A stretch of 26,509 nucleotides of DNA from a virus, in the IMG/VR virus record IMGVR_UViG_3300035130_000226, positions 1-26,509 of that record; one strand, given 5' to 3'. The notes beneath the pieces are model-generated. The model made no database searches and had not been told where the DNA came from. It saw only the letters and a list, made by a program, of their open reading frames with translations. Position 1 is the stretch's first letter. Every line of letters starts with the position of its first letter. The position numbers were made by a program, and so were the translations under genes. Positions 1 through 25,605 of this stretch are shown here, in pieces.

Positions 1-2
1 AC

Positions 3-5027: not shown

Positions 5028-5038
5028 GGAGAGCAAAC

Positions 5039-5164: not shown

Positions 5165-5179
5165 CCTGAGGAGCCAGTC

Positions 5180-5884: not shown

Positions 5885-5893
5885 GGAGACGTC

Positions 5894-6325: not shown

Positions 6326-6326
6326 T

Positions 6327-6869
6327 GTGTCCACTATCGTTGCCAGATTCCAACGGGCCTCTGGGGATTCCGTAGAGGAGCAACTCCGCGTCCTGCAGGA
6401 GAACTTGGAGCGCTTCACTACCGAGATCAACCAGTCCGCCCCCGGGGGAGGGATCTGGGTCTACGATAGCTCTACGGCCATCGCTCTAAGCGCTAGTTGG
6501 GTCAAGGTCGACACCTTCGAGGAGGCCAGTGACAGTGATGGAGTCACTCCGGACGTGGCCGGCAGCCGGCTGGTCATCAAGAAGCCTGGCGTGTACTTCA
6601 TCAACGTCTTCACCTCTATAGCCCTGAGTGCATCGAAGATGGTAGACCTCGGGGTATTTCGTAGCGACGGCCAAGCTCAGGATGCGGAGCTCACAGGTAG
6701 CTGCCTTGTTACTGTCGGTGGGGCTGGGAATAGAGCCTCGTGCTGTCTCGGGGGGCCAATCCGGGCGAACGCCGGAGATGCTCTGGAGCTATTCGCCCGC
6801 AGTCTATCTGGTGCAGTGAACCTCACCGTGGTACATGCCAACTTCTCAGCTGAGTGGAGGAGACCCTGA
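6327..6869 (+). CDS. Virion protein with probable C1q/TNF-like jelly-roll domain
   Basis: The 180-residue product starts at GTG 6327, directly after the preceding TGA, without a strong ribosome site, so it is probably translated by coupling. Residues about 13-34 (DSVEEQLRVLQENLERFT) form a short coiled coil. From about 42 onward there is a beta-rich domain with strand patterns typical of C1q/TNF-like folds: SRLVIKKPGVYFINVFTSI, a Gly/Ser loop, IRANAGDALELFARSL, and a final strand near LTVVHANFSAEW. A coiled coil plus this trimeric fold is common in phage head or tail fibres. I infer an accessory fibre or receptor-facing component; no homology search was possible. Confidence 0.6.
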   Translation: MSTIVARFQRASGDSVEEQLRVLQENLERFTTEINQSAPGGGIWVYDSSTAIALSASWVKVDTFEEASDSDGVTPDVAGSRLVIKKPGVYFINVFTSIALSASKMVDLGVFRSDGQAQDAELTGSCLVTVGGAGNRASCCLGGPIRANAGDALELFARSLSGAVNLTVVHANFSAEWRRP

Positions 6870-6870
6870 T

Positions 6871-9800
6871 ATGCCAGTCGAGACCATTGACATCCCATTC
6901 ACTGGGGGAATCGACCAGGAGATCGCCGAGAAGATACTGCCAATCGATGGGCGTTTGTCCGATCTGAAAGAGGCGGACATAGACGAGATCGGGAAGCTGC
7001 ACAGCCGGACAGGCTTGAACACCAACTTCGGCAATGCCGTGCAGGAGGCCCGTGGTTTCGTCCGGCCATTCTCCCACGGCAAGAAGCTACTCCGAGCCCT
7101 CCCGGACAGGATCGACATCTACGAACAATCAGGGTCATACCCACGCATAAGGACAGTGTCTGATCGCTTCTGTGGGATGAGGCTGACGACGGAAGATATC
7201 TCCGGTGTCTCCACTCAAGAGAACAGCCCGGACGACAGATATGTCGACGTAGCTGTTCAGGGTAACTACTACGTCGTGACGGTGGGTGCCTATTTCTACG
7301 TGCTGGACAAAGAGGACTATCGGGTCGTTCAGGGACCAACTGCCATTGCCACCGCTGGGACCGTGGCGCCATGGGCAGCTGTGATCCCTGTGGAGGCTGC
7401 CAACTACGTAGCCATTCTTTACTCGTTGGATACTTCCAATGACCTACGCATGCGCCTCTTGAATCTGAGCAATCCATACGGCAGCGGGTCGGATGGAGTC
7501 TTGGTCGCCGGGGACATCATTGCCACGGCCCCTAAACATATTCAAGCGATTCGGATGCACGATGCATTAATCGATCAGTTCGCTGTGGCCTATAAAGACA
7601 CAGCCAGCGACCTGAAGATTCGAGTGTTTGACCGGCTGGGCAACGAGTACACTGGTAGCCCGATCACTGTGTCTGGGACTGTGCAAAGCATTGGGCTCGG
7701 AAGTGTGTACATCGGAGGCTCTACGGAGAAGATCTACTGCGGTTGGGGGGAGCTTATTGGTGGAGTATATCAGGTCCGCAGGCTCGTGTTGGAACTGAAT
7801 TCAGTCTCCGTTTCAGTCTCATTGGTGGACGCATTAGTGAAGGATCATGGAGCAGTCGCCGGGCTCGGAGCGATAACTTTTACAGAGAAGACCACTGCCA
7901 GTATGCTCATGTACTGGAACTACATCGAGGGCCTCAGTGGGACTCCATCATTGGCGGTCTCAAACCCATTGTGGAACAGCCTCATCTATCAGAACGGTGG
8001 CATAAGCACCCCGGAGGAAATTTGTGGTGCGCTGACGATTCTCTCTCAGCCAGTACATTTGTACAATAATGTTGATGACAACGATAATGACATCTTCTTC
8101 CTGGGGAAGACTGAGCAGGTTGCCAACGAGTGTTACTTTGTGGCTCGGCACAGAGCTGGTGCTGGAGAGCTCGACATCGTTGGGCGGTTTTATATCGGAC
8201 GAGGTCATGATGAATGGCTCACCCGCCCGGTGGCGGTAATACCAGCATCTGAAGATTCGCCGGGGAGTTTCAGGTTCTTCGTCCCGCGCAAGGATGTCAG
8301 TCCGGGAGCCGGAACGGACTATAGTGCATTGGTGTACTCTGGTAGACGTTACATCTCTAGATCACATGCAGGCAACTACGATGTCTGGGGATTAAGTGTT
8401 GGGGAGATTGACATAGAGAAGCTTGGCAACATCATCCAAGTACACAACACGACGGTGATTGCTGGTGGGCAGTTGTGGGACTTTGACGGTGTACAAGTTG
8501 TCGAGCATGGCTTCCATTACTTCCCTGGAATCGGTACCACAGTGGCTGGCAGCGGGAGTGGACATCAACTATCCAACGGAGACTACAAATTCAGGGCTAC
8601 CTATGAATGGTATGACAGTTTGGGTCGTCGCTACGAATCTGCACCCTCGGACATTGCCGAAGCTACCGGGGTAACTGCTGGACAGAAAGTTGATGTGGCA
8701 ATCGTCCCATTAGAGCTCACGCATAAAGATAACGTGTACGTGAACTTCTACCGTACCGTTGCCGGTGGAGATACCTTCTACCTTGAGCAGCGAGCCGCGA
8801 ATGCACCTGGGGTTTCTATGGTGTTTGTTGGTGGGAGCTCGACATTGGGGCTGAGTGATACTGATCTGGTAAAACAACGCGTGTTGTACACGAGCAACAA
8901 CGAAATCGATCACATTGCTCCACCAGCTTGTCATGCAGTAACGGAGCACGAGAACCGCTTGGTGATCTGTGACCATGAAGGGAAGATTCGCTACTCAAAA
9001 ACACACGTGGAAGACCGTGGAGTGCAGTTCAACGACGCGGCATGGAAGATCCTCCCCAGCGCCTCTGGTAAGCCTCAGACCCTGGCATCGATGGGGGGCC
9101 AATTGTGTGTGTTCGCGGAGTCGGGGATCTTCCGTCTCTATGGTGATGGTCCCTCAAACATCGGGATCGGGGACTTCGTCGGCCCAGTGGAGATGAGCAG
9201 CGCAGTTGGAGCGCTGGCTGAGACACACGCACATACCTGGTCAGGAGGGATAGCCTTCGTAGGGTCTGACAGTGTCCCATGGAACATAGACCGAGGGTTT
9301 GCCATCAAACGTATCGGCAGCCGGATTCAGAGATCCATCGAAGGGGCCTCGTTTGGGAGATTCATCGAGCACCCGACGAAGCCATACCTATGCTTGGCAA
9401 CTACGGCCGGCACATTCATCTGGCACAGAGAGACTGGTAATTGGGTCAACTACATAACGCCAGGCTCTTGGACTCTTCATCAGACTGACCTATGTACCTG
9501 GAATAGGTACCTGGTGGTCAGTAGGGTAGAGGAAAGCTTCAACATCCAATATTCAACAGTGGTCCAGGACGGTGGTGGCAGGGAGGGTGACCTGGAGGTC
9601 CTCACCGGATGGATACGCCCTGGACGGCTCAACGGGTTCATGCGCCTGAAGTGGCTCTATGTACTGGGAGAGTACGTGGGGACCGGTGGGTATGAGACGA
9701 TTACTGTCGAGTTGCAGTATGAGGACGGGACCAGTGAGAGCTTCTCGAAGTTGTGGACAGCATCCGACGAGCCCTATGTCCTGCGGATGAAGCCGGCCAG

Positions 9801-9933
9801 ACAGAAGGCAAGTGCCTTCCGAGTGAAGATCTCCTACGGATTCGAGGGGGCGCCAGATGCCATTCTCTATGGCATCAGTCTCATGGTACAATTGAAGAGC
9901 AAGTACCCACTCAAGGGTGCAAAGACTTTATGA
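6871..9933 (+). CDS. Tail nozzle-like (tail tubular B-type) protein
   Basis: A 1020-residue, beta-strand-rich protein of the size and order expected for the podovirus tail nozzle. Its N-terminus (DIPFTGGIDQEI) resembles the short leader of such proteins. Repeated blade-like stretches with VYV, VAILYS and similar patterns suggest a propeller-like body. The C-terminal third carries HENRLVICDHEGKIRYSK, GQLCVFAESGIFRLYGDG and SGGIAFVGSDSVPWNIDRG, a pattern I associate with nozzle proteins. The start is set at ATG 6871 behind GGAGGAGA; an upstream in-frame ATG at 6835 lies inside the previous gene and lacks a ribosome site. It would attach below the adaptor and channel DNA. Confidence 0.7.
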   Translation: MPVETIDIPFTGGIDQEIAEKILPIDGRLSDLKEADIDEIGKLHSRTGLNTNFGNAVQEARGFVRPFSHGKKLLRALPDRIDIYEQSGSYPRIRTVSDRFCGMRLTTEDISGVSTQENSPDDRYVDVAVQGNYYVVTVGAYFYVLDKEDYRVVQGPTAIATAGTVAPWAAVIPVEAANYVAILYSLDTSNDLRMRLLNLSNPYGSGSDGVLVAGDIIATAPKHIQAIRMHDALIDQFAVAYKDTASDLKIRVFDRLGNEYTGSPITVSGTVQSIGLGSVYIGGSTEKIYCGWGELIGGVYQVRRLVLELNSVSVSVSLVDALVKDHGAVAGLGAITFTEKTTASMLMYWNYIEGLSGTPSLAVSNPLWNSLIYQNGGISTPEEICGALTILSQPVHLYNNVDDNDNDIFFLGKTEQVANECYFVARHRAGAGELDIVGRFYIGRGHDEWLTRPVAVIPASEDSPGSFRFFVPRKDVSPGAGTDYSALVYSGRRYISRSHAGNYDVWGLSVGEIDIEKLGNIIQVHNTTVIAGGQLWDFDGVQVVEHGFHYFPGIGTTVAGSGSGHQLSNGDYKFRATYEWYDSLGRRYESAPSDIAEATGVTAGQKVDVAIVPLELTHKDNVYVNFYRTVAGGDTFYLEQRAANAPGVSMVFVGGSSTLGLSDTDLVKQRVLYTSNNEIDHIAPPACHAVTEHENRLVICDHEGKIRYSKTHVEDRGVQFNDAAWKILPSASGKPQTLASMGGQLCVFAESGIFRLYGDGPSNIGIGDFVGPVEMSSAVGALAETHAHTWSGGIAFVGSDSVPWNIDRGFAIKRIGSRIQRSIEGASFGRFIEHPTKPYLCLATTAGTFIWHRETGNWVNYITPGSWTLHQTDLCTWNRYLVVSRVEESFNIQYSTVVQDGGGREGDLEVLTGWIRPGRLNGFMRLKWLYVLGEYVGTGGYETITVELQYEDGTSESFSKLWTASDEPYVLRMKPARQKASAFRVKISYGFEGAPDAILYGISLMVQLKSKYPLKGAKTL

Positions 9934-9942
9934 GGTGATTTC

Positions 9943-10677
9943 ATGCCTTTGCCAGTAGCAGCACTCGCAGTACCGGCCGCCATAGGCGCCGCGGGAAGCA
10001 TCGGATCGGCCATTGCTGGCAGAAAGGCCGGCGAGAAGGGTTATGGTTCGTACAAGCAGAGCAAGCTAGGGGCCAAGCAGTACATGACTGCTCCAGGGAC
10101 CACTATGGGTGTCGGGTCGTTCATGGATCCCAACATCACCGGTGGACAGGATTACCTGACCCAGACGCTCATGGGTCAGATGCAGGGGATGGCTCCCTCG
10201 CCGGCTCAGATGATGCTCCAAGGCGGTCTCGAGGACATCCGCGGGCAGATTGCCAGCAACATTGCCGGCTCGAGCGGATCGAACCAGGCATTTGCCCAGC
10301 GCCAAGGCATGCAACAGGCATCCACGGCCGGAACAGAGATGGCCCGTCAGATGGGCATTCTCCGAGCTCAGGAGCAGGAAGCCGCGCGCCAGCAGTTCTT
10401 AGCACTTCTCGCTCAACGCCTGCAGGGATCGCTTGGCCTCGAAGGGGTAGCTGCCCAAAACTACGCGACGGCGATGGGATCACAACGAGGGGCCAACATC
10501 CCCGGGCAGACTCAAGCTGCGAACATCGGGAACATGTTCCAGGGGCTGGGCACGATGGCCACCGGCATCGGTGCATTGGCAGCTGGGGGCGGTGGAGGCG
10601 GAGGCGGAGGGGTGCCCTCTATGACTAGCCTCCCAAGCAGCATGCAGTCGATCAACGTGCCGATCCCTGGAGCGTGA
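9943..10677 (+). CDS. Putative ejection (internal virion) protein, small
   Basis: The 244-residue product has a hydrophobic Ala/Gly-rich N-terminus (AVPAAIGAAGSIGSAIAG) with glycine-zipper spacing, a Gln/Met-rich helical middle (about 85-175), and a C-terminal tract of nine consecutive glycines (about 215-223). These traits and the position after the nozzle gene, before two larger helical proteins, match podovirus proteins that are packaged in the head and ejected to extend the tail through the envelope. The start follows GAGGTG. No motif proves the role. Confidence 0.55.
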   Translation: MPLPVAALAVPAAIGAAGSIGSAIAGRKAGEKGYGSYKQSKLGAKQYMTAPGTTMGVGSFMDPNITGGQDYLTQTLMGQMQGMAPSPAQMMLQGGLEDIRGQIASNIAGSSGSNQAFAQRQGMQQASTAGTEMARQMGILRAQEQEAARQQFLALLAQRLQGSLGLEGVAAQNYATAMGSQRGANIPGQTQAANIGNMFQGLGTMATGIGALAAGGGGGGGGGVPSMTSLPSSMQSINVPIPGA

Positions 10678-10678
10678 G

Positions 10679-10903
10679 ATGGGTAAAGAGGCCGCCAGGA
10701 AAGCTTTGTTGGATATGTACATGCCTCATTTGCGCAGTGCGCTTGGGAAGCTGAAGCCCAAGGGTGACATCAAAGCCAGCATCTTACAGGAAGAGATCCT
10801 GAAGGCAGCGAAGGTGGATAGCGAGCTGTCGTGGGCGATGCATGATTTGACACCACAGGAATTGGCAGCGATCACCACGTTCAGGAAATCTAGCCATGGC
10901 TAA
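10679..10903 (+). CDS. Small protein within the ejection-protein block, unknown
   Basis: This 74-residue helical protein begins one base after the preceding stop and overlaps the next gene by eight bases, so translation is probably coupled. It is Lys/Ala/Leu-rich, with no Cys, signal or membrane segment. I do not recognise a family. Its place between ejection-type genes suggests a virion or assembly role. Confidence 0.6.
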   Translation: MGKEAARKALLDMYMPHLRSALGKLKPKGDIKASILQEEILKAAKVDSELSWAMHDLTPQELAAITTFRKSSHG

Positions 10904-12731
10904 AAAGCGTAGGACAGTCCAATTGGAGCCCCAAGTGCTCACCGGCTTCCCTGGCAGGACGATCCAGCTTGAGCCCCAGATCCTTACGGGAGAGCCGGCA
11001 GGGTTTCAGCTCGAAATAGGAGACCCACAAGTACTCTCCCGGTTAGTCGAGCTGCAGCCTGAAACCCTCACCGGCCTTCCAGGTTTGATGGGTTCTCAGC
11101 CTACGCCACCTGGGGCCATAGTGCCAATTGCACCGACATCCTTGGAGGAGCTTACTCCAGAGGGATACATGCAAGCCCTCGCTGCTAGGGAAGGCGGCTC
11201 GCCGGCGGAGATGCTAGCCCGAGCAGAACGCGAGAACGTGATTCTGCCCGGCATCATCAGTGGGAAACTGTCCACATCCATCATCGCTCAGGAACTGCAG
11301 AGGATGGGCGAGGAGGCCGGGCAAGGCGTTCCGGCAGAAGTGACCAGGCTCCCAAGCTCCGGGGAGGAGACTACCCCCACCGAAGGGCCCACCCCAGCGG
11401 GGCTCCCCCAGCGCCCAATGGCCGGTAGAGGTGCCGCTGGCCGTATCTCGAGGCTCGGGCAGCGAATGGGGCAGTTGCCGGGGGAGTACGAGCAGGCCGC
11501 CGAGTCCTATCAGGAATTCCAACGCGCGGCCGAGGAAGACGTTGCTGCTCGGGAAGAGGAACGACTGTGGCGGCAGGCAATGGTCCAAGAAGCTTCCAAC
11601 GCCGCCGTGCAAGCCGCTGCCCAACAAATAGGTCAGGAAGCCGCTGTCGGTGACATCATCGAGGGTGCCCAGGCCAAGATGGCGGCTCAGCAGGAGAAGC
11701 TCGCTCAGTTGCAGCAAGAGTACGACGAGATGCAGCCAGGTGAGATCGATCCCCTGGGGCGCTTCGGCGAGACTGGACCGAAGGTCATGGCAGCTCTCGG
11801 CATCATCTTCGGGGGGCTCGGCTCCATGTTCACTGGAGGGCCCAATCAGGCCCTGGACATGGTCCTGAACATCGCCGAGAGCGACGTGGGCCGCGAGCAG
11901 GAAGAGCGCGCTGCCAAACGCCGGGCCCTCGGGGAGCGCTGGTCGCGCCAGATGGAGTACATGGACCGGGTGCGACAAATGGGGGAAGACGAGATCGAGG
12001 GCAAGCTCCTACAGAGGCGCGAGATCATGGCTGCCTTGGATATGAAGCTGCAGCAAATAGAGGGCACATCGGCAACTCAGGAGAAGATGCTGCAAGCCCA
12101 AGGACTACGTACCGCCCTCGTCATGAAACAGAACGAGAACGAGTTTGCGCTCAAGCAGCACAAGCTGAAGTTGGAAGCCGACGCACTAGGGTCTCGTATA
12201 CAGGCGGAGAGTGCCGCCGATGTTGCGCGCCGTGGATGGGCAACAATCGGCATCCAGCGAGAAGCACAGCGCGGGCAGGCGAAGCTTGCATCAGTTGCTC
12301 AGGCCCAAGAAGTTACTCAGGTACAGAAGGCCACCGAGACCATCCGCGATTTGCAGGAGCAGTACAACTTGCTGCCCAGCCAAATCCCAGCCACTTTGTC
12401 CTCATTGGTTCCGTTCATAACCACGGATGCCAAAAAGTACAAAGCTGCCATCGAGGCCACTGGGCGACCAATCTATCGCAGCATCCTGAAGGATCGCATG
12501 TCCGATGCTGATGCTGCTTGGGCAGTAGACAAGATGTTTGGTCAAATCAGTGAGCCGCGCGGTGTCGGCAACGCCCGCTTCGAGGCGACATTGGGAATTC
12601 TCGACAGCATCGCTGAGGGGAAAGACGCCGGCCTGGAAGCTGCCGGAGTGATGCCCGTGGGAGGTGGTCAACTGAAGCTCGACCGGCGTAAATTCGAGGC
12701 ATGGCTGGAACGTGTACAGCCTGCGGAGTAA
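10896..12731 (+). CDS. Putative ejection/internal virion protein with N-terminal repeats
   Basis: A 611-residue protein. Residues 7-63 contain degenerate repeats of the form QLEPQxLTGxPG. A Pro/Gly-rich segment (about 100-190) follows, then a long predicted coiled-coil region (about 195-285) rich in Gln/Glu/Ala. A short hydrophobic Gly-rich stretch (about 300-325, ALGIIFGGLGSMFTGG) is followed by another extended helical region (about 340-500). Extended helices with one possible membrane-interacting stretch fit podovirus ejection proteins. The start ATG overlaps the preceding gene; AGGAAA lies about eight bases upstream. The following gene begins immediately after its stop. Confidence 0.6.
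   Translation: MAKKRRTVQLEPQVLTGFPGRTIQLEPQILTGEPAGFQLEIGDPQVLSRLVELQPETLTGLPGLMGSQPTPPGAIVPIAPTSLEELTPEGYMQALAAREGGSPAEMLARAERENVILPGIISGKLSTSIIAQELQRMGEEAGQGVPAEVTRLPSSGEETTPTEGPTPAGLPQRPMAGRGAAGRISRLGQRMGQLPGEYEQAAESYQEFQRAAEEDVAAREEERLWRQAMVQEASNAAVQAAAQQIGQEAAVGDIIEGAQAKMAAQQEKLAQLQQEYDEMQPGEIDPLGRFGETGPKVMAALGIIFGGLGSMFTGGPNQALDMVLNIAESDVGREQEERAAKRRALGERWSRQMEYMDRVRQMGEDEIEGKLLQRREIMAALDMKLQQIEGTSATQEKMLQAQGLRTALVMKQNENEFALKQHKLKLEADALGSRIQAESAADVARRGWATIGIQREAQRGQAKLASVAQAQEVTQVQKATETIRDLQEQYNLLPSQIPATLSSLVPFITTDAKKYKAAIEATGRPIYRSILKDRMSDADAAWAVDKMFGQISEPRGVGNARFEATLGILDSIAEGKDAGLEAAGVMPVGGGQLKLDRRKFEAWLERVQPAE
10914..11084 (+). repeat. Degenerate protein-coding repeat, QLEPQxLTGxPG type
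   Basis: Four related units lie at residues 7-20, 22-35, about 38-47 and about 52-63 of the 611-residue protein. The first two are near identical in protein (VQLEPQVLTGFPG and IQLEPQILTGEPA) but differ at many synonymous bases, so the repeat is kept at the protein level. The third and fourth are weaker (DPQVL, LQPETLTGLPG). Confidence 0.7.
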
Positions 12732-15275
12732 ATGGGCATGGCAACTGGCCTGTTCAAGGATCCCACCGGAAAGATAGTCAGGCTGGAACTGACTGAGGAC
12801 CAACTGCGTTCGGCGTACGAGAGTGGCTACACCCCATTCACGCACGACGATCTAGTCCAGGAGCAGTACGGTGGCCTCAGGGGCCAGCTGCTCACAGGCC
12901 TCACCGGTGTAGCGAAGGGAGCTTCCCTTGGTGCCTCAGATGCCTTTCTAGCAGGCCAGGGCGAGGGCGTTCGACAGGTCCTCACCAACCTGAGGCAGGC
13001 AAACCCAGGAACCGCGCTTTTGTCCGAAATCGGTGGGATGATCGGCGGTACATTGCTCACCAAAAAGGTGCCTACTCCTGCGGGATTGGCGTCCAGTATC
13101 GGATCCAGAGCTGCAGCAAGCGCTGAAGGCACTGTGCTGCGCGCTTTCACCAAGCCTGGGGTATGGGGCCGTACAGCCGCCAAAATCGCCGGAGAAGCCG
13201 CCAGGGGAGGCGTGGAGGGCAGTATTTTCGGGGCCGGTGCCGGACTCAGCGAAGCCGCCCTTGGGGACCCAGAGAGGGTTGGAGAGCTCGTAGTTGCCGG
13301 GGCCCTGGAGGGAACGGCGTTTGGCGGATTGCTCGGAGGGGCGGTCGGTGCCATCGGGGGGCTCGGTGGGGCAGTGAAGGGGAAGATCGCCGATCGCATC
13401 TCCAAGCGCGCTGCTGTGGAAAGTGAGCAGTATGCCGCAGTGCTACGTGTCCTCAAAGAGATGGGAGTCTCCGAAGCGAAAGCAGGCAAGCTGATTGCGC
13501 GCAAGGGTGACCAATTCATGGAAGACATCCGCTGGCTTCTGATGGAAGCGCCGGCCGTCAACGTCGGGAAGGATGCCATGCAGCCTGTTCTGACCCAGGG
13601 GGTCAAGAACGTGGACGAGGCCGCCGAGCGCTTGGCGAAGGCTTGGCAGGGAGCTGGCCAGGAAATTGAAGGCCTGAAGTCCTACATGCGTCGGGCCGCC
13701 AAGGAGTTCCGTCGCAGTGAACGCGAGTTGACGACTCCTGGCTATACCAGATTCCAGGAAGTCTACGAGCCCGGAGAAGCAGCGGCCAGGAAGGCATTTA
13801 CCGAAGCGGAGACTGGAGTCGGAAGAAGGCCAGTGACCGCCCAGATGAAGTACAGGGTGGAGCCCGAATTCACTCCCACGCCGCGAATCAGCAAGTTCAA
13901 GCCCTATTTCTCGAGAGGGGAGCTCGCGGCCGAATTTGAGACTGTCCTGCGCAAGGAAGCCCCGGAAGCTATTGCTGGACAGGATGTAGCCACGCTCTGG
14001 GATAACCTGGAAGCAATGGTCATCCGCGTTCGTAAAGGGGAAGGGGCTGTAGGAAAGCGCGCTGGGTACTACGACTTCACCCATCTACAGGAGTTCAAAC
14101 AGCAGTTGAAAGGTAAGAGCTTCGTAGAGAGACAACTGCGCCGCTTCCTCGCCGACAAGCAGGAACAACTCGTCCGGAATGCTGGCGGTGAGAAGTTGCT
14201 CCAGGGATACCGTTTGAACAAACGCATCTACCGGGCAAGCCGAGATCTGGCTGACCAGATGGGCATTCGCAAGATCCTAGAGGGTGAGGGAGTACTGAGA
14301 AAGGCTGCCAAGCGTGCAGGCAGGCATGCTGCAAATGCTGCCGTTTGGCGAATGGCTTACAAGGGCGGGCTGGATCCAAAAGCCATGGCTCAGATGGGCA
14401 TCTTTGGACTGCCTGTATTTCTCGCAGTCGAAGGCGCTCAGAAATTCGCCGGCGCTTGGAAGCCTCCACTGGCGCGTGCCTACGGCAAACTGCAAAAAAT
14501 GAGCACGCTGGGTGCTATGCAAACGCGCGTCGACGGATTCCACCAGAAGTTCAGGGATGCCATACAGGAAGCCATCAAAGGAAGCCGTAGAGCTCTGACG
14601 TACGGCTATGTCGTCAGTCGCATGACCGGGGAGAAAGATCGGCAGAAGGCCCTAAACAAGTACCGCGCGAGCATCACGCGACTGGCCACTGATCCAAATG
14701 CTCTACTCGATGCAGTAACGGCTTCCGTGGCCTCCTTCGCTGATGATGCACCACAGATCGCCACACACTCGGCCGCGACTATCGGCCGCGCCGTGCGCTT
14801 TGCACAATCAGTCTTGCCCCCAACGGATACTGTGAGCCATCTACATTCTCAGTTCGGCGAAGATGTCTACTCAGACAGTGTGCTGGCGCGCATGGATCGC
14901 GTCTTGGGCGCCATTGGAGATCCCGTAACAGCCATCCGGCGTATCGCGTCTGGAGTTGCAACACCCGAGGAGATAGAAGCACTCCGGCAAGTACACCCAC
15001 AGCTGATGATGATCGCCGGCCAAATGCTCAGCGAGGCCGTTGCCGATCTCGGCCGGCCACTCACCTGGCGAGAGAGCTTGCGCCTGTCACCCTTCCTGGG
15101 CTCAGTGGGCCATGCTATGCTCAAGCCGATGAACATGGCCGTGAACCAGAGAATCTACCAGACCCCGGAGACCCAAAGTGAGCCAGCAATGAGCAGGCCC
15201 TCGGCGCTGGCTAAGGAACGAAATACGTCGCTGTCATACCAGACTGCGACCCAGAGATTGGAGAACCCGAGATGA
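12732..15275 (+). CDS. Large putative ejection protein with glycine-zipper helices
   Basis: The 847-residue product has an N-terminal leader (TGKIVRLELTEDQLRSAYESG) and then several Gly/Ala-rich helices with membrane-inserting character: EIGGMIGGTLL (about 97-107) and AFGGLLGGAVGAIGGLGGAV (about 197-216). The rest is helical and basic. This is the profile of the largest internal virion proteins of podoviruses, which form the trans-envelope channel. No transglycosylase motif was found. ATG at 12732 follows the previous stop with no gap; ATG 12738 is an alternative that has better spacing from GGAG. It is the last gene of the ejection block and its stop overlaps the next start (ATGA). Confidence 0.6.
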   Translation: MGMATGLFKDPTGKIVRLELTEDQLRSAYESGYTPFTHDDLVQEQYGGLRGQLLTGLTGVAKGASLGASDAFLAGQGEGVRQVLTNLRQANPGTALLSEIGGMIGGTLLTKKVPTPAGLASSIGSRAAASAEGTVLRAFTKPGVWGRTAAKIAGEAARGGVEGSIFGAGAGLSEAALGDPERVGELVVAGALEGTAFGGLLGGAVGAIGGLGGAVKGKIADRISKRAAVESEQYAAVLRVLKEMGVSEAKAGKLIARKGDQFMEDIRWLLMEAPAVNVGKDAMQPVLTQGVKNVDEAAERLAKAWQGAGQEIEGLKSYMRRAAKEFRRSERELTTPGYTRFQEVYEPGEAAARKAFTEAETGVGRRPVTAQMKYRVEPEFTPTPRISKFKPYFSRGELAAEFETVLRKEAPEAIAGQDVATLWDNLEAMVIRVRKGEGAVGKRAGYYDFTHLQEFKQQLKGKSFVERQLRRFLADKQEQLVRNAGGEKLLQGYRLNKRIYRASRDLADQMGIRKILEGEGVLRKAAKRAGRHAANAAVWRMAYKGGLDPKAMAQMGIFGLPVFLAVEGAQKFAGAWKPPLARAYGKLQKMSTLGAMQTRVDGFHQKFRDAIQEAIKGSRRALTYGYVVSRMTGEKDRQKALNKYRASITRLATDPNALLDAVTASVASFADDAPQIATHSAATIGRAVRFAQSVLPPTDTVSHLHSQFGEDVYSDSVLARMDRVLGAIGDPVTAIRRIASGVATPEEIEALRQVHPQLMMIAGQMLSEAVADLGRPLTWRESLRLSPFLGSVGHAMLKPMNMAVNQRIYQTPETQSEPAMSRPSALAKERNTSLSYQTATQRLENPR

Positions 15276-15763
15276 AAAACTTTCTGTTCGGTATGATCCT
15301 CCTGGCGCTCTGCGCCGTTGTCTACAACGCTTCTGCAGGACCGAATGAGTCCCTCGGCTACCACGAGGGTGTAGGACTGGATGCTGTGGCACTCAACGGT
15401 GCCGCTGCCACGCGCACGTTCGAGATCGACACGCGGCGCTATGTCTACGGGGCTGTGACATTCTGGATCTCGTTTGACTACACGGCGAACGCCGGTATTA
15501 TCTCGCTGATATGCACCGGGGGCCCGAGCGACGATGACAGCGATTACACTCTTACCGTCTGTGCCTCGACATCCGCGGAGGGAGAATGCACCGCCAAGTC
15601 ATCTGGCATCTTCCGCTCGGAGGGCTCGCTGAGCGCTGATACGAAATGGGACGCGCGTATGGAGATCAAAGGTGCGAAGTCGCTGTCGTGTGTCGGCTCT
15701 CATGGGGGAAGTCCCGGGGCGACCGACAAGCTCACCGTGAAATACATACTGGCGGAGGACTGA
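15272..15763 (+). CDS. Secreted protein with signal peptide and four cysteines, unknown
   Basis: The first 22 residues look like a Sec signal peptide: MKN, a hydrophobic core (FLFGMILLALCAVVY) and an ASA cleavage site. The mature part is about 141 residues, beta-rich, with four cysteines (81, 97, 106, 140), which would suit disulfides in the periplasm. I recognise no family. The start overlaps the preceding stop as ATGA, with GGAG eight bases before. It is the first of three consecutive genes with signal sequences. It could be an envelope-associated phage protein or an exported virion part; function is not assigned. Confidence 0.6.
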   Translation: MKNFLFGMILLALCAVVYNASAGPNESLGYHEGVGLDAVALNGAAATRTFEIDTRRYVYGAVTFWISFDYTANAGIISLICTGGPSDDDSDYTLTVCASTSAEGECTAKSSGIFRSEGSLSADTKWDARMEIKGAKSLSCVGSHGGSPGATDKLTVKYILAED

Positions 15764-15764
15764 G

Positions 15765-16874
15765 ATGTCTTTTTGGAAAGGTCTGGCTCTGTTCTTGGTG
15801 TGTTTCTGCATACTGGCAACCATCATCAGCACTACCCAAGCCCGTTATCCGGAACGCTTCCCTGACAAGAGCGTTGTTGGGCAGTCTAATCATGCCGATG
15901 ATGCCCCAGTGTGCTGGGGCGACGATGATGACCTATGCATAGAGTGGGACACGGATGGATCACCGGATGGAGGTAGGATCACTCAGAAAGACTGCGATGG
16001 ATCGCCATGCGATCCGCTGGAGTTCTACAAGGACGCCGGGGCCAATGTGATAGTCCTACGGGCATCGTCAGTTACGAACCCAGACGCCAAGATGACGTTT
16101 GGGCCGCCTGCGGCCTCCGGATTCAGCGTGGGTGCGAATGATGTGCACATCACAGGCGTCAAAATGGAAGTGGACGCGGAAACCCGTTTTGATGGGCGGG
16201 TTGTCATAGAAGGGCACTTGTGGATTAAGGATAACGAGGAAGTATATCTTGGTAGCGGCCTTGACTACATCATGGAGTACGAGCCCGCATACACTGGGTT
16301 ATCGATAAGAGCAACGACCGGTGAGATTTGGTTCTTGAATGATGGGGATCAAGATCTCTTCGTTGGGGATAGATCCCAAGCTATCCAATTGGATGCCAAT
16401 ACAACTGACGGAGAGCTCGCCATCTATGACGAAGCGGACGGGCCGGCTAACCTGTTGGTTAGTGGTAACCGGCTCGCTCTTGGTGGCGGGGGTGGGGGTT
16501 TCGGTTGCATCAACCAAACCATATCCTACGCGGACTTCGTGGACGGCGGTGGTGCATCAGGTACATTCGTACTAGATGAAGGCATCCCTGATGGTGCGGT
16601 TGTACAGCGCGCGATCCTGCACAGCTTGACTGGGTTCACCGGTGATGTGTCTGCATTTGTACAGATAGGAGATGGCACGGATGTAGATCGATACAGTACG
16701 GGAACACCTAGTGTTTTCACCACGAATCCGAGCGGGTGTGATCTCAGAGAACCATCTGGCACAGCCTGGCACGACGATGCCAAGAGTGTCACAGTGACGA
16801 TCACGAGCAACGCCGACTTCACATCCGTGTCAGCTGGAGCAGCAACAGTAGCTGTCTGCTACTGGACACCATAA
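15765..16874 (+). CDS. Exported or membrane-anchored beta-rich protein, fibre-like
   Basis: The 369-residue protein starts with a hydrophobic segment (about 5-25, LALFLVCFCILATIIS) and a possible TQA cleavage site at 24-26. Residues about 50-82 contain four cysteines in an acidic region. The middle (about 140-235) has short beta repeats such as HLWIKDNEEVYLGSGLDY and GEIWFLNDGDQDLFVG, typical of phage fibre shafts. A seven-glycine linker (240-246) leads to a C-terminal beta-sandwich-like domain (about 248-369) with three more cysteines. Fibre-like architecture with an export signal is unusual. It may be an adhesin-like or surface-exposed phage protein; the role is inferred. Confidence 0.55.
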   Translation: MSFWKGLALFLVCFCILATIISTTQARYPERFPDKSVVGQSNHADDAPVCWGDDDDLCIEWDTDGSPDGGRITQKDCDGSPCDPLEFYKDAGANVIVLRASSVTNPDAKMTFGPPAASGFSVGANDVHITGVKMEVDAETRFDGRVVIEGHLWIKDNEEVYLGSGLDYIMEYEPAYTGLSIRATTGEIWFLNDGDQDLFVGDRSQAIQLDANTTDGELAIYDEADGPANLLVSGNRLALGGGGGGFGCINQTISYADFVDGGGASGTFVLDEGIPDGAVVQRAILHSLTGFTGDVSAFVQIGDGTDVDRYSTGTPSVFTTNPSGCDLREPSGTAWHDDAKSVTVTITSNADFTSVSAGAATVAVCYWTP

Positions 16875-16887
16875 AGGAGGGTTTGAC

Positions 16888-17199
16888 ATGACGGGTAAAA
16901 TCATCGCATTGATTTCTGGTCTACTGCTCGGCAGTATCGCAGCCAATGTCCCGAAGACGTTTACCAAGACCGTGAACAACAGCAATCAGCAGGTCATTGA
17001 TTTCTGGTCCAAAGTCGAGAACGTGACCTGCAGCGACTTCGACACCGAATATGGAAAGACACCAGGAACCTGCACGACCATGATGGATCCCTGCATCGAC
17101 CGGACCGTGGTCAGCGCGACATGCAACACAGAAACAGGCAAAACGGTTTTCACCGTGACCTACGATCCGCCTGGACAGTTTGAAGTGACCGTTCCCTAA
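16888..17199 (+). CDS. Small secreted protein with four cysteines, unknown
   Basis: The 103-residue product has an N-terminal signal-like segment (KIIALISGLLLGSIAA, about 4-19) and a mature region with cysteines at 48, 62, 69 and 79, suggesting two disulfides. The remainder is polar and beta-rich (TVFTVTYDPPGQFEVTVP at the end). A strong AAGGAGG lies before the start. No family is recognised. It is the third consecutive signal-bearing gene, directly before the lysis region. Confidence 0.6.
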   Translation: MTGKIIALISGLLLGSIAANVPKTFTKTVNNSNQQVIDFWSKVENVTCSDFDTEYGKTPGTCTTMMDPCIDRTVVSATCNTETGKTVFTVTYDPPGQFEVTVP

Positions 17200-17223
17200 A
17201 CTGCCCTGGGGGGAGGAAAGGCA

Positions 17224-17514
17224 GTGCAGTCCATGACTGCCAAATCGAAAAAGCCCTGGTACGTAGTCACTGCAGGCTCCATTGGGGCCATCATTGCAGT
17301 CATCACTCTGTTTGGCATGCTCGGCTGGGTGCTTCCCTGGAAGGCTGCAGCCAAGAGCGAAGTGACAGAGCTGCGCGAGATGGTGATTGAGATCAATGGC
17401 AAGCTCGATGCATTGCTGAAAGATGGAGGTATTCATTATGTCCCTGCACGTAGAAAATTTGATCGAAGTCCCCACCCCAGGCGGGGCGAAAGAGAAGAGC
17501 CGAGACCTGAGTGA
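17224..17514 (+). CDS. Single-helix membrane protein, holin candidate
   Basis: The 96-residue protein starts at GTG 17224, eight bases after GGAGG; ATG 17233 is an alternative. It has a basic N-terminus, one membrane helix (about 13-38, VVTAGSIGAIIAVITLFGML), then an amphipathic segment (SEVTELREMVIEINGKLDAL) like a short coiled coil. Its 3' end overlaps the amidase gene by 77 bases in another frame, which gives the basic tail. Position directly before the endolysin suggests a holin or an antiholin-type partner. One-helix, coiled-coil proteins of this kind are frequent in lysis regions, but the class cannot be fixed from sequence. Confidence 0.5.
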   Translation: MQSMTAKSKKPWYVVTAGSIGAIIAVITLFGMLGWVLPWKAAAKSEVTELREMVIEINGKLDALLKDGGIHYVPARRKFDRSPHPRRGEREEPRPE

Positions 17515-18004
17515 TCTCGAATACATCGTGCTGCACCGGATGGGTTGGAACGGGCGCGATCAGTGGCTAAGGCGTGGATACCCAGACAACATCGTCGGGG
17601 TGAGGAACTTCTACCGGAGTGAGATTGGGCTATCTCTACCATATACCTTCATCGTCACGTCCGACGGTGAAGTTCAGCAGGGGTGGCCAGTGACCCACAT
17701 CTCCCCACATGCGAAGCACTTCAACGTGTCTGGGATCGGTGTCGCGCTCCTGGGGGACTTCCGGACGCGAGTGCCCCCCGATCGCCAACTCTGGGCCGCT
17801 GAGGACCTGGCAACTGCTTTACTCATTACATGGCCTCACCTCAAGATCGTGGCTCATGATGAGCTCGGTCCTGGCGCAACTTCCACACCCGGCAAGCAGT
17901 GTCCCGGTCCAATGTTCAACATCAGGGGTTTCCGGGAGCGTGTTCGCCGGCTACAATATGAGCATGGAGCCCGAAACCTTTTGCAGATTGGAGTTACGAT
18001 ATGA
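17438..18004 (+). CDS. Endolysin, N-acetylmuramoyl-L-alanine amidase
   Basis: This enzyme cuts the amide bond between MurNAc and L-alanine in peptidoglycan to release progeny. The 188-residue product matches the Amidase_2/PGRP fold of T7-lysozyme-type endolysins. Zinc ligands are visible: H33 in YIVLHRMGW, H140 in IVAHDELGPG and C155 in PGKQCPG. Conserved HISPHAKHFN and GIGVALLGDF also fit. There is no signal peptide, so a holin is needed for access. I chose ATG 17438 (GGAGG eight bases upstream) over ATG 17423, which contains that ribosome site. The length equals typical single-domain amidases. Confidence 0.88.
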   Translation: MSLHVENLIEVPTPGGAKEKSRDLSDLEYIVLHRMGWNGRDQWLRRGYPDNIVGVRNFYRSEIGLSLPYTFIVTSDGEVQQGWPVTHISPHAKHFNVSGIGVALLGDFRTRVPPDRQLWAAEDLATALLITWPHLKIVAHDELGPGATSTPGKQCPGPMFNIRGFRERVRRLQYEHGARNLLQIGVTI

Positions 18005-18243
18005 ATCCGCTACCAAGTGATGGATGGAAAAGCCGCAAGGTCATCATCGGGATTACCGTGTTCGCAGTGATGGCCATTGGTGGGTTTGCCTGCATGTTGC
18101 TGGAAGCTCCTGGCGAGGCAAGCACGCCGATCGCCACTTTCGATCAATGGGCTGGACTGATGAAGTTCACCGTGCCCGGAGTACTCGTACCTCTGTTCGG
18201 GGCTCTGGGGATGGACAAAATCGCAGAGGCCAAGCGTGAGTGA
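18001..18243 (+). CDS. Two-helix membrane protein, holin candidate
   Basis: The 80-residue protein has two hydrophobic helices (about 14-34, VIIGITVFAVMAIGGFACMLL, and about 52-70, GLMKFTVPGVLVPLFGALG) separated by a short polar loop, with charged ends (KRE at the terminus). This is the form of class II holins. The start overlaps the amidase stop as ATGA, and its end overlaps the next start by eight bases, so the lysis genes are translated as one coupled unit. Which of this and the 17224 protein is the holin cannot be decided by reading. Confidence 0.55.
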   Translation: MNPLPSDGWKSRKVIIGITVFAVMAIGGFACMLLEAPGEASTPIATFDQWAGLMKFTVPGVLVPLFGALGMDKIAEAKRE

Positions 18244-18574
18244 AGTAGTTGGTTGGATCGCCGGCATTCTGGGCGTGTTGTTCGGAGTTGGTGCCGTTCT
18301 GCACACGAAGAAAGTGCAGAGCGACCGACAGCGCGCCGAGCGGGATGCTTTCGAGGCCAAGAAAGCCCACCTGAACGCACGACTCGAGGCAATCCGTAAG
18401 GACTCAGAGCGCCAAGCCGCTGAAGCTCAGATAGCGGCGCTGCGAGAAAACGAGGAGATCCGGAATGATGTCCGTAGTAACCCCCCTGGTTCTGTTGTTA
18501 GCCGCTGGAATGCTGGAGGCCGACGCACTACTCCTGGAGATGGACAAGAGCCTGGAGATTCTGGAGCGGCCTGA
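18236..18574 (+). CDS. Rz-like inner-membrane spanin candidate
   Basis: The 112-residue product begins at GTG 18236 with an N-terminal membrane helix (about 4-22, VVGWIAGILGVLFGVGAVL) and continues into a highly charged helix (about 25-80, rich in Lys/Arg/Glu/Ala) that should form a periplasmic coiled coil. That is the layout of Rz i-spanins, which fuse inner and outer membranes at lysis. The last 36 residues are low complexity and lie where a second gene overlaps in another frame, as in Rz/Rz1 pairs. The overlapping partner lacks an obvious lipobox, so the pair is not a textbook one. Confidence 0.55.
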   Translation: MSEVVGWIAGILGVLFGVGAVLHTKKVQSDRQRAERDAFEAKKAHLNARLEAIRKDSERQAAEAQIAALRENEEIRNDVRSNPPGSVVSRWNAGGRRTTPGDGQEPGDSGAA

Positions 18575-18947
18575 CAAAGCCCCAAATGTGCCTGCGTGGC
18601 CACCTGACCTCCCTGATCCATTCACCATGCAGCCTGGAGATACCCTGGAGGGCAACCTCCCAGCCACCTGCTATCCATACCCAACCGACTTCGTCCTGGA
18701 ATATCATCTCCAGCACTGGGAGTCCTACCCAGACCGTTGCCAGCGGAAAATGAATGCCCTGGCCGGTCAGCTAGAGGACTCCCTCGCGTTCTGCCGTGCC
18801 ACCATTGATGACTTGGAAAGCAGCTGCGTGAGCGATGTCGAGGAGCCCGATCCGTTCTGGGATCACGTGATTCTGTCATTGGGATTGGCTGGTGCAGCCA
18901 TTGGTGGGATTGTGCTCGGGTATGCTATCGCCGTTGCGACTCATTGA
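18465..18947 (+). CDS. Protein with signal segment and C-terminal membrane helix, lysis region
   Basis: The 160-residue product starts within the Rz-like gene (110 bases overlap, different frame) behind AGGAG. It has a signal-like N-terminus (about 3-22, SVVTPLVLLLAAGMLEADAL). A Pro-rich linker (about 35-75) follows, then a region with four cysteines (69, 92, 110, 121) and helical content. A C-terminal membrane helix spans about 134-157 (VILSLGLAGAAIGGIVLGYA). There is no lipobox cysteine after the signal, so it is not a standard Rz1. A combined N-terminal export signal and C-terminal anchor is reminiscent of unimolecular spanins, but those are lipoproteins. The role is tentative. Confidence 0.55.
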   Translation: MMSVVTPLVLLLAAGMLEADALLLEMDKSLEILERPDKAPNVPAWPPDLPDPFTMQPGDTLEGNLPATCYPYPTDFVLEYHLQHWESYPDRCQRKMNALAGQLEDSLAFCRATIDDLESSCVSDVEEPDPFWDHVILSLGLAGAAIGGIVLGYAIAVATH

Positions 18948-19419
18948 ACTTCTTGATCTCCCCCCTTACATTTAAAGGCCACACGGAGAATCTCCCCCAT
19001 GCAGCCTTCCCGTACCCGAATAAGTAGATCATCGTGCTCCACATAACCCTGTTAGTCGGGGTGCCGTCCGGCATCAGGAAGTTGATCCGACTGTTGGGCA
19101 CGAGTATCATGCCGTGGATTGCGTACTGGTGGAACCACTCTTGGGAGCACCCAGCTAATCCAACGACACAAGACCTCCTTTTGTGATCAGCCCATTCCAG
19201 ATGACCCTTGCGCATCCACCTGCCCATCTGAGCGAATGGAGGATTGCAGAATGTACCATCCATCCATGGCTGCTCCAGACCATCTTCCTTCTCGGTCCAA
19301 AAATGCTTGCACAAGGCATTTTTCTTGTCAGCCGCCGCGTCTAACTGGAACGGGCCGTACCTGTAATTCAACATCTCGAACAGCCACGGTGGCGTTCTCA
19401 TTTCTTGGTTGCCCGGCAT
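18925..19419 (-). CDS. Phage N6-adenine DNA methyltransferase
   Basis: This enzyme would transfer a methyl group from S-adenosylmethionine to adenine in DNA, commonly to shield phage DNA from host restriction. The 164-residue product matches the phage DNA N-6-adenine methyltransferase family: TPPWLF at 9-14, LDAAAD at 26-31, NALC at 34-37 and the catalytic NPPF at 59-62. A later SRINFLMPDG segment also fits. No target recognition domain is visible. AAAGGAG lies before the start. It is the last gene of the minus-strand operon; its 3' end overlaps the end of the plus-strand 18465 gene by 23 bases. The recognition sequence cannot be told. Confidence 0.88.
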   Translation of the reverse strand: MPGNQEMRTPPWLFEMLNYRYGPFQLDAAADKKNALCKHFWTEKEDGLEQPWMDGTFCNPPFAQMGRWMRKGHLEWADHKRRSCVVGLAGCSQEWFHQYAIHGMILVPNSRINFLMPDGTPTNRVMWSTMIYLFGYGKAAWGRFSVWPLNVRGEIKKFNESQRR

Positions 19420-19422: not shown

Positions 19423-19788
19423 TTACTCCTTTACTGGTGTGTGGTTCTTATCATCCTGAGCCCTGAAGCTCGGACTTGAGTGGCAACATGGATTGATAAA
19501 TTCGAGCATGACCAGATTGGCAGTGTCTACTAGATGCTCCTGGTTACCGTCGACGAGATAGAGCTTGAGTCTCTCGATCGCTGAGCTGACGTGATCGTAC
19601 TTAGGCCGATCTGAGGCTCCCACCGGCCCGTGCCTCAGATAACCAATAATCATCCGATTGCGCCTGTAATACTCGAACTCTGGAGACCAATCGTACTTCA
19701 GCGGGAGTAGTGGATTATTGGTCGATATACATTTGCATACACCTAGATGCTCCATCAGATGCTTCCTGATGTGCTCACTCACCGTCAC
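19423..19788 (-). CDS. Conserved phage hypothetical protein
   Basis: The 121-residue product starts at GTG 19788, overlapping the polymerase stop (GTGA), and ends just before the methyltransferase. A helical segment AIERLKLYLVDGNQEHLVDT followed by ANLVMLEF (about 70-97) recalls a phage hypothetical family with the pattern RLxxYxxxGNxExLVDxANxxMxEF, remembered rather than searched. The C-terminus has AQDDKNHTPVKE. No enzymatic residues are recognised. Position between polymerase and methyltransferase suggests an early function. Confidence 0.65.
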   Translation of the reverse strand: MTVSEHIRKHLMEHLGVCKCISTNNPLLPLKYDWSPEFEYYRRNRMIIGYLRHGPVGASDRPKYDHVSSAIERLKLYLVDGNQEHLVDTANLVMLEFINPCCHSSPSFRAQDDKNHTPVKE

Positions 19789-22388
19789 TTGTTCCTCTCT
19801 TTCTTTTTCCTTTCTCTCTTTCTCACTTCCCTCATCGCCCTCGCCACCCCCTTCTCGAGTGGCAATCTCCTATCTACACTCACACAATCAGCCCAATTCT
19901 TTCCAATCTTCAGACCAATAGTGAACTTCGCCGTATTTCCCCCAAGCGTGACATCCTTCTCCATGTACTTCACCAGCAGCTTGGCCAGCTTTACTGGATC
20001 TTCTCCCCCGAGTACGAGCTCATCGTGTACTTGCGCCAATATGCCCTCAGTCTCCCAATTTAGGGCATCTGAGATGGGCTTCACCACTGGATTGATGAGG
20101 TCTGCCGCGGAGTGCTGCACTGGGAGATTGTAGCACTCGGTCGGCTTCACACGCTGGTAGATCGGCAATCGATGACCACTGATAGGAGCCTCAATATATC
20201 GCTCGCGGTAGGCCGTCCTGATTAGTCCATCGTGCCAAGTAGGGATCTCGTGTAGGGCTTCCGTGAGTGCTTCATCGAAACGGATGCACTGGGCAAGTGT
20301 GGTTTCGGCAAAGCCGTCGTTGACCAGTGTTTGTTGCATAGTCCTGGGATCGGCCCCATAACACCAGCCGTATTCCACTGGCTTGGTGACATTGCGCTCG
20401 CCCCCGGTGACTTCTCCAGGGTCTTTTCGGTAGGGAAAGATGATCATGGCGACCATTCTATGCACGTCTTTTTTCTGCTCGAACCATTCCAACAGAAGCT
20501 GACAGCCAGATAGGAGCGCGATGATTTTGATCTCGAGTTGGTCGTAGTCCCCCCTGACAATCCATCCTTTTTTACTAGGGGGGATATACATATCTCGAAG
20601 GCCGGCCACCCTGATCACTTCGACAACTTCTCCAGTCTTCCTATTCAGTCTACGGTCGATGACTGGCAAAGGTATGTTCATCAAGTTCGGGGAGGCACTC
20701 CAGCGGAATGTGCGTGCTCCGGTGACACGCCACGTGACATGGACACGGCTTGTTCTCGAATCTATGAGTTTTATCGGATCGCAGTAGGTGTCACGCAGTT
20801 TAGCGTACTGGCGGTACCTATCGAGCCCACGCGCCATGACGACGACCAAGGGATTGTCATGGGTCTTGAGTTCAGCTAACACACTCTTGTCCAGGGAAGG
20901 CTCCTCGGTAAGCTGACTCCACTTGGTCGGACGCACGCGCAACTTGTCGAACACTAGCTTGCGCAGATGTGCTTGGGATGCTGGATTGAACGTGCGGCCC
21001 CACGCTGGCCAATACTTCCTGGCCACCAGGCGCAGCTCCTGCTTTGCGCGACTCTTCCGCTTCCCAAGTAAGCGGCGATGCTCCATCATCCGCTCCCGGT
21101 TGGCTGGGAAGCCGAATGTCTGCATCTTCATGGCCACTTGCATGTTCGTCAGATAACTATCGTAGAGCTGCCAGCCGTTGTGTTCCTCGTCCAGTCTTTG
21201 TCCCAGTGGCTCTCGTAGCCATACAGGGGCATAACTGTCTTTGGCGCAGTATTCTCGTAGTTGGCGTGGGTTCCTCTTGCTGAACTTCTTGGCTCCTTTC
21301 TCATTGGATGCAGTATGCTTCTCCTCCTTCCAGCGGGGCGCATGGCTCTCCTCACACATGATCCAACCCAAATCATGTCTGCGCCCCGAGGCTACGATCG
21401 TGTGTGCTGGGAGGGTGTCCCACGTATAGCCATGCGTTTTGATGCCCAAACGCTGGAAGGTAAGGAGGTCGTGGGGACCGTTCTGGAAGGCGAGCGGTAT
21501 GGACTTATCCTCAAGAATCCCAACGACCTCATCCCTAATACGGGTTCCAATAGCACATGAATCAATCCCTTGGACACTCCCATGCCTTCCAGCAGTATAG
21601 GATTCCCAGGGTACACATACCGCAACCTCGGCATTTGCAAGGCCGATACACATGCACAAATCTCGCAGAGGGTTTGTCCCCCGCGTCTCCACATCAGATC
21701 CGACGAGTCCACCGCATTTGCGTATGGAACGCAGTGCCCGAAGCGTAGCATCGTTGACCTCCGTATGAATTGGTGGCCATTCCCAATCTGGGAGCAGCTT
21801 GCGCGCGAGTGCCCAAGCGCGCTGGGTGTGAATGTATGTTGACGGCTTGTATGCCCACCCCTTCTCCCGCAGACAGAATGCTGGGTGGAGAGTGGCGAGC
21901 ACCGTCAAGCCATCATAGTGCCCCTTCCAACCGGGAAGCGGTGCTCCTGCCCAGGCGAATATGGAGGGCAACTTCTTGTGTGCTGCTTTGGTGTTGTCAC
22001 TCATTACCGGGCCAGTGAGTGCATACAGAGCCTTGCCCCCGAATGCTAACACCGCTTTGGCCCCCGTTGCCGCCAGCTCGACTTTCAGCCGTGGCTCACA
22101 GCACGCGATCGCTTTGCGCCATTGCTCCGGACTCATCTTGAATCGCGGCCGACACATGCACGCGTTGGTGATGTGATGCCGATTTCTGTCCATCCCGAGA
22201 TACCTAAGCATGTCGTCGAGGAAATCCCCAGATGGACCTACGAAGTAGTCCCCGAAGACTTCCTCATCTGGCCCAGGTGCTTCCCCAACGATTGCTAGCT
22301 TGCAGCGGAATGGCGCCTGCGGAAATACTGGGATGGAATTTTTGAGAGGGCAGGTGTCACAGAGGCAACCTAGTTGGCGTGGGTCCAT
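19785..22388 (-). CDS. DNA polymerase A family with N-terminal uracil-DNA glycosylase-like domain
   Basis: The phage replicative polymerase, 867 residues from ATG 22388 (GAGGTG just upstream; GTG 22397 is possible but overlaps that site). Domain order: a family 4 UDG-like domain (about 1-195) with Cys pairs at 10 and 13, GEAPG at 35-39, CRP near 79, Cys 96/97 and HPAF at 168-171, consistent with a 4Fe-4S cluster. Next, a 3'-5' exonuclease with DVE at 232-234, N303/D307 and Y380xxxD384. Then the polymerase: motif A DYDQLE at 614-619, motif B R665xxxK669xxxYG, and motif C HDE at 788-790. SPO1 phage polymerase has a similar fusion. Tyr replaces Phe at the O-helix discriminator position. A basic tail of about 33 residues follows the usual PolA end (GKNWADC). 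Confidence 0.93.
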   Translation of the reverse strand: MDPRQLGCLCDTCPLKNSIPVFPQAPFRCKLAIVGEAPGPDEEVFGDYFVGPSGDFLDDMLRYLGMDRNRHHITNACMCRPRFKMSPEQWRKAIACCEPRLKVELAATGAKAVLAFGGKALYALTGPVMSDNTKAAHKKLPSIFAWAGAPLPGWKGHYDGLTVLATLHPAFCLREKGWAYKPSTYIHTQRAWALARKLLPDWEWPPIHTEVNDATLRALRSIRKCGGLVGSDVETRGTNPLRDLCMCIGLANAEVAVCVPWESYTAGRHGSVQGIDSCAIGTRIRDEVVGILEDKSIPLAFQNGPHDLLTFQRLGIKTHGYTWDTLPAHTIVASGRRHDLGWIMCEESHAPRWKEEKHTASNEKGAKKFSKRNPRQLREYCAKDSYAPVWLREPLGQRLDEEHNGWQLYDSYLTNMQVAMKMQTFGFPANRERMMEHRRLLGKRKSRAKQELRLVARKYWPAWGRTFNPASQAHLRKLVFDKLRVRPTKWSQLTEEPSLDKSVLAELKTHDNPLVVVMARGLDRYRQYAKLRDTYCDPIKLIDSRTSRVHVTWRVTGARTFRWSASPNLMNIPLPVIDRRLNRKTGEVVEVIRVAGLRDMYIPPSKKGWIVRGDYDQLEIKIIALLSGCQLLLEWFEQKKDVHRMVAMIIFPYRKDPGEVTGGERNVTKPVEYGWCYGADPRTMQQTLVNDGFAETTLAQCIRFDEALTEALHEIPTWHDGLIRTAYRERYIEAPISGHRLPIYQRVKPTECYNLPVQHSAADLINPVVKPISDALNWETEGILAQVHDELVLGGEDPVKLAKLLVKYMEKDVTLGGNTAKFTIGLKIGKNWADCVSVDRRLPLEKGVARAMREVRKRERKKKERNK

Positions 22389-22410
22389 TGTTGTCACCTC
22401 TGCGGGAAGT

Positions 22411-25591: not shown

Positions 25592-25605
25592 CTCACTCTC
25601 CTTCC
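25588..25605 (-). promoter_or_regulatory. Translation-start cassette copy 1 (deaminase start)
   Basis: Minus strand reads GGAAGGAGAGTGAGATGA: Shine-Dalgarno, upstream TGA, one G, and ATG 25591. Here the TGA is the true stop of the preceding gene. One of four near-identical copies between 25588 and 26156. Confidence 0.7.

Follow-up and report, generated by a model that had tools for sequence, protein, structure and literature searches.

A candidate Sec-exported, cysteine-bearing fibre-type module of three late genes in podovirus-, siphovirus- and myovirus-like phages

Three consecutive late genes of a podovirus-like virus, here called A, B and C, are tentatively read as a fibre-type receptor-recognition module which would be rerouted through the Sec pathway and join the phage particles after lysis. 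The genes lie in the window, i.e. the whole 26.5-kb virus fragment from IMG/VR which was analysed. It is assumed that tail fibres, which set the host range of phages, fold and are assembled in the cytoplasm, and no secretion route is expected for them. The reading is favoured by several features taken together: a tail fibre with a signal peptide in the contig L057, swaps of a cassette within B, a B-C pair without signals in other phages, and cysteines linked to the presence of the signal. A signal- and cysteine-bearing fibre module spread across three morphotypes would mean that fibre maturation has a second route, outside the cytoplasm, or, alternatively, that fibres have given rise to a class of secreted receptor blockers.

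The phage of the window is read as a podovirus because of its P22-like portal, SU10-type capsid protein and SU10 adaptor. The features discussed here are the following.

10896..15275, + strand: two cysteine-free proteins of 611 and 847 aa, directly upstream of A; going by their position, probably ejection proteins, injected along with DNA
15272..15763, + strand: gene A, 163 aa, predicted Sec signal peptide (residues 1-22), 4 mature cysteines
15765..16874, + strand: gene B, 369 aa, modular, predicted Sec signal peptide (residues 1-26)
15765..15842, + strand: signal peptide of B (MSFWKGLALFLVCFCILATIISTTQA), by signal scoring
15897..16115, + strand: conserved N-terminal part of B, about residues 45-117, CWGDDDD.C...DC..SPC, with 4 conserved cysteines
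16126..16500, + strand: central cassette of B, swapped, with no DNA similarity in either near-identical relative
16506..16871, + strand: C-terminal domain of B, residues 248-369, with the pair Cys248/Cys365
16888..17199, + strand: gene C, 103 aa, predicted Sec signal peptide (about residues 1-18), 4 cysteines
17224..18947, + strand: lysis cassette, beginning with a small membrane protein
17423-18004, + strand: Amidase_2 endolysin, followed by a second small membrane protein
18236-18574, + strand: Rz-like i-spanin
18465-18947, + strand: protein with a signal and a C-terminal transmembrane segment, overlapping the Rz-like ORF

The open frames of A, B and C almost abut one another on the same strand, and the start codon of A shares bases with the stop codon of the 847-aa gene (ATGA). 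Since a single strand is used with little or no spacing between the genes, the trio is probably expressed together with the late and lysis genes. It sits at the T7 gp17-like tail-fibre position, after the 611- and 847-aa proteins and before the lysis genes. The host is likely a diderm, judged from the spanin-like genes only. The protein at 18465-18947, whose N-terminal segment is signal-like, is an unusual spanin partner with a u-spanin-like layout, and some relatives of its gene have lipobox-like starts (LAAC in L004). On the minus strand, positions 19785-22397 encode a DNA polymerase A that has a uracil-DNA glycosylase domain at its N-terminus (Pfam UDG, E 3e-19).

Signal peptides were called with a home-made rule-based score and inspection by eye, and export is a prediction throughout. 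Computed for the window's 26 likely genes, the score reached 4.88 for A (cut after ASA22), 4.45 for B (cut after TQA26) and 4.13 for C (cut around SIA18) while no head or tail gene exceeded 2.2, which bears out the preliminary description of three consecutive late genes with signal-like starts. Its counts of mature cysteines (4 in A, 7 in B and 4 in C) were exact as well; the virion proteins encoded upstream mostly have none or one. A signal like those of the trio was seen in 0 of the 12 virion genes upstream, and 1.3% of shuffled proteins reached a score of 3.0. The nearest other scores in the window belong to small membrane proteins of the lysis cassette (3.2 for 17224-17514 and 4.2 for 18001-18243). 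Of 154 ORFs of at least 140 aa from the window and related contigs, only ones in the tail-fibre/lysis locus scored 3.9 or more. Lipoprotein signals on A, B and C were ruled out: inspection of A (LALC), B (FLVC, VCFC) and C found no lipobox, the pattern [LVI][ASTVI][GAS]C being absent. A signal-less form made from a downstream start was also ruled out, as no ATG lies just behind the signal in A, B or C of the window.

It could be argued that the N-termini are simply hydrophobic and the signals are not used, the proteins staying in the cytoplasm or attached to the membrane and being assembled as ordinary virion fibres. Such an explanation is improbable, even though it accommodates signal-less homologues placed in virion clusters, the complete fibre standing behind a signal in L057, and the weak scores of some N-termini. 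By the rule used, the signal is weak on B of L003, L009 and L050 and missing on A of L009, and L036 is also among the relatives with a weak signal or none on A or B; these cases count against rerouting through Sec too. Nevertheless, the signals of B are unrelated in sequence between groups of relatives and occupy one and the same position across the phages, with the n-h-c pattern kept in most of them and a classic layout with AXA-type sites. The signal of C, moreover, is under purifying selection as judged from the codons of the window and L001 (11 synonymous and 2 non-synonymous changes in 18 codons), and a cysteine pair of B is linked to the signal, as described below.

Gene B comprises a conserved cysteine-rich N-terminal part, a swapped central cassette and a jelly-roll-like C-terminal domain with a terminal Cys pair. 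The virion and lysis half of the window (1-18950) shows about 89-95% DNA identity to two near-identical podoviruses, G002 and G006, and the cassette (16126-16500) is its only stretch without DNA similarity in both of them; the 611-aa gene diverges with respect to G002 only. Nearly the same cassette recurs in the siphovirus-like L001. The alignment of the myovirus-like phages L036 and L008 is interrupted only once in its first 13.1 kb or so, at the distal part of B (8260-8973), with 89% identity ahead of this break and 88% behind it; the B cassette of L036 recurs in L007. Exchange of this kind is the pattern of receptor-binding domains, from which we infer that B may bind a receptor. Two other regions of the window also differ from both near-identical podoviruses. 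In the gene of a 180-aa protein (6327-6869), only about 57% of bases match at 6601-6750; by eye this protein has a coiled coil and a C1q/TNF-like head and is perhaps a short trimeric fibre. The early region at 25100-26300 is mostly without similarity to them, and cysteine-rich ORFs lie near it (336 aa with 18 Cys, 120 aa with 7 Cys).

Pfam and PHROGs searches matched no family to A, B or C of the window and no tail-attachment domain was recognised in them, which in the case of B speaks against a fibre. The AlphaFold model of whole B has a pLDDT of 45. Two details of B given by the preliminary description had to be corrected: the Gly7 linker is a run of 6 Gly, which reads GGDGGG in relatives and is not conserved, and the fibre-shaft-like repeat was an impression only, no internal repeat being detectable. 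Gene A is beta-rich in an AlphaFold model of low confidence (pLDDT 56). In most relatives a small signal-bearing protein fills its slot, and no homology was detected between A of the window and the other A proteins (hhalign probability 0.4%), nor for A of L009; A is therefore called a positional equivalent only.

The trio was also searched for in other phages, as had been suggested, and relatives were found in podovirus-, siphovirus- and myovirus-like phages, all of them from IMG/VR. Those of B are ten contigs. Among the isolate phages of INPHARED, tblastn found no relatives of A, B, the 847-aa protein or the C family, and none of the signal-less B proteins (B') described below or of homologues of the B C-terminal domain. 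GTDB genomes gave no match to the N-terminal part of B and one 47%-identical domain match, in a Lentisphaerota MAG. Apart from G002 and G006, the relatives of B carry differing virion genes, among them one for a tape-measure protein in L001 and baseplate wedge genes in L007 and L008. In all three kinds of phages A, B and C keep their order and their place behind the tail tip, spike or fibre gene and ahead of the lysis genes; in L009 a second fibre-like gene stands where C would be. Other recognition proteins are a beta-helix tailspike in L003 and tail fibres in L004, L007 and L008. The group of the window has no further large fibre candidate besides the trio.

The place of the trio in relatives, immediately upstream of the lysis cassette, would also suit an accessory of lysis or envelope remodelling, acting on the cell wall or the outer membrane and aiding release. 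This role, one of those first proposed, is very unlikely and gained no specific support: Pfam and PHROGs gave no enzymatic domain, there are no features of a peptidoglycan hydrolase, holin or spanin, and a lysis factor would not need the fibre- or cement-like architecture of B with its swapped cassette. Furthermore, the B-C pair occurs in the virion clusters of two large phages. The 162-kb phage L056 encodes a B' without a signal whose cassette is that of L004 (78% DNA identity over 665 bp); the gene immediately behind it encodes an apparent homologue of C, signal-less and Cys-less. In L059 (191 kb) a signal-less B' with a different cassette is likewise followed by such a C homologue. The neighbours of the pair in the large phages match baseplate and virion structural families. 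By their sequences, then, B and C appear to exist both as plain members of virion clusters and, in other phages, as proteins with signals and cysteines. Homing-endonuclease-like ORFs, recognised by eye, adjoin signal-less B' genes (L056:1681-2532 and L058:2274-2840) and could drive cassette exchange.

The C-terminal domain of B shows about 50% identity to signal-less proteins which adjoin major capsid genes (L045, L047 and probably L044); the B gene of the window does not itself adjoin a major capsid gene. The beta-sandwich-like C-terminus noticed at first is supported by the AlphaFold model (pLDDT mostly 65-78, with a low-confidence gap at 307-338), for which Foldseek returned 7eel_H with a probability of 1.00 and 7dou_4 with 0.95 (E about 5e-3), so that the modelled fold resembles, and may be, a capsid cement jelly-roll. 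Among 59 distinct homologues including B of the window, which are related sequences and not 59 independent trials, the terminal Cys pair is present in 10 of 13 domains that have a signal, be it strong or weak, and in none (0 of 46) of those lacking one. In the tree, the signal-less branch of L056 and L059 is nested within the signal-bearing clade (support 98/98), so the signal and the Cys pair changed together at least once. The signal without a Cys pair in L112 and L113 is of separate origin; there, cement-like proteins adjoining head genes (L112:3542-4327, L113:3554-4393) have acquired a signal peptide independently.

A fibre with a signal peptide was found in L057, a 44-kb podovirus-like contig (G014), where a tail fibre gene (993-2900) lies ahead of A and B. 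Residues 28-146 of the fibre match positions 2-121 of phrog_1640, a tail protein N-terminus (E 2e-27), and close to the C-terminus of the fibre there is an S74 chaperone. Residues 1-27 form a clear Sec signal peptide (MRRHVLPGLVGVLAVAALVATPHTAEA) directly before the fibre N-terminal domain, with no start codon between the two. No second tail fibre was recognisable by inspection of the contig. A 577-aa signal-bearing fibre-like protein is encoded downstream of the lysis genes in L050 (6636-8369) and has three repeated Cys pairs of the WCAGATGALDLVC type.

According to the preferred reading, A, B and C would be made late, along with the lysis genes, and exported via Sec, after which the signal peptides would be removed and disulfides formed in the periplasm. 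Opening of the envelope by the endolysin and spanins would set the proteins free together with the particles. B, with its swappable recognition cassette, would then most likely serve as, or join, the host-recognition fibre, and A and C would be its partner or tip proteins. Fitting after lysis would explain why the trio occupies the place of a tail fibre, why neither the window group nor L057 has a further large fibre, and why L057 has kept the fibre N-terminal domain. In T4 and P22 fibres or spikes are added last, and their addition works in extracts too; to our knowledge, the fitting of exported fibres to particles after lysis has no precedent in tailed phages. What speaks against it is that such addition would be inefficient, and that L003, L004, L007 and L008, perhaps also the window with its 180-aa protein, have other recognition proteins. 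It is conceivable, and stated with more reserve, that some tailed phages secrete their host-recognition fibre, which would be oxidised in the periplasm and attached at lysis, the particles being "armed" on release.

The trio had been regarded as an envelope-targeted module in contrast to virion parts. The targeting itself, though predicted, is well supported by unrelated signals recurring in three morphotypes and by a Cys pair confined to signal-bearing domains. A plain non-virion status does not follow, and the opposition of virion and envelope may be mistaken in view of the tail-fibre position, a cassette shared with a virion-cluster protein and the signal on the genuine fibre of L057. Among the roles first proposed, receptor masking or superinfection exclusion is a possible one, though rather unlikely. 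B, together with A and C, would be a soluble exported copy of a receptor-binding protein which jams the receptor, so that receptors in the dying cell and its debris are blocked and the progeny is spared adsorption to debris, or rivals with the same cassette are excluded. Masking would account for the signal peptides and the export-linked Cys pair, for expression adjoining the lysis genes and export before lysis, for a cassette that also occurs in a fibre-like protein without a signal, from a large phage of the same metagenome, and for the separate spike or fibre genes of L003, L004, L007 and L008; T5 Llp (PMC9586334) and T4 Spackle (PMC7650644) are precedents. On the other hand, A, B and C have no lipobox or outer-membrane anchor, L057 retains a tail-fibre N-terminal domain behind the signal, and the cassette varies while other structural genes hardly do, where a mask of the phage's own receptor should track its own receptor-binding protein. 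Joining of the particles after lysis is therefore favoured over masking. The choice between exported fibres that attach to the virus once the cell has burst and fibres that block receptors is testable, and natural pairs (one cassette with and without the signal, one signal with different cassettes) offer a ready experimental design. In a literature search covering titles and abstracts, with most subscription journals outside its coverage, signal-bearing tail fibres were not described in tailed phages; this silence is weak evidence of novelty.

Among known systems, podovirus tail fibres and tailspikes (T7 gp17, phrog_1640 type) resemble B in their position after the ejection proteins and before the lysis cassette and in an exchangeable recognition domain, and L057 even has the fibre N-terminal domain. 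They differ in that B has a predicted Sec signal peptide, disulfide-type cysteines and no recognisable tail-attachment domain. T5 Llp is encoded next to the receptor-binding protein gene and works from the periplasmic side (PMC9586334). Superinfection-exclusion lipoproteins of the Llp/Cor type are thus similar to the trio, whose export is predicted, in being exported to the periplasm from genes beside receptor-recognition genes (PMC9586334), but they are small lipoproteins, whereas proteins of the A-B-C type are mostly larger, of the SPase I type and without a lipobox, and have a fibre architecture. T4 Spackle (gp61.3) has a cysteine pair and a Sec signal which is cleaved, and acts in the periplasm (PMC7650644). 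The trio, with its predicted export, is alike in these features, while Spackle is a small inhibitor of the tail lysozyme. Capsid cement or decoration jelly-rolls (Pam1 7eel, KHP40 7dou, the KPP25 structural protein) may share the fold modelled for the C-terminal domain of B, which differs from them in forming the end of a multidomain, predictedly exported protein encoded in the late tail/lysis region and in carrying an extra Cys pair.
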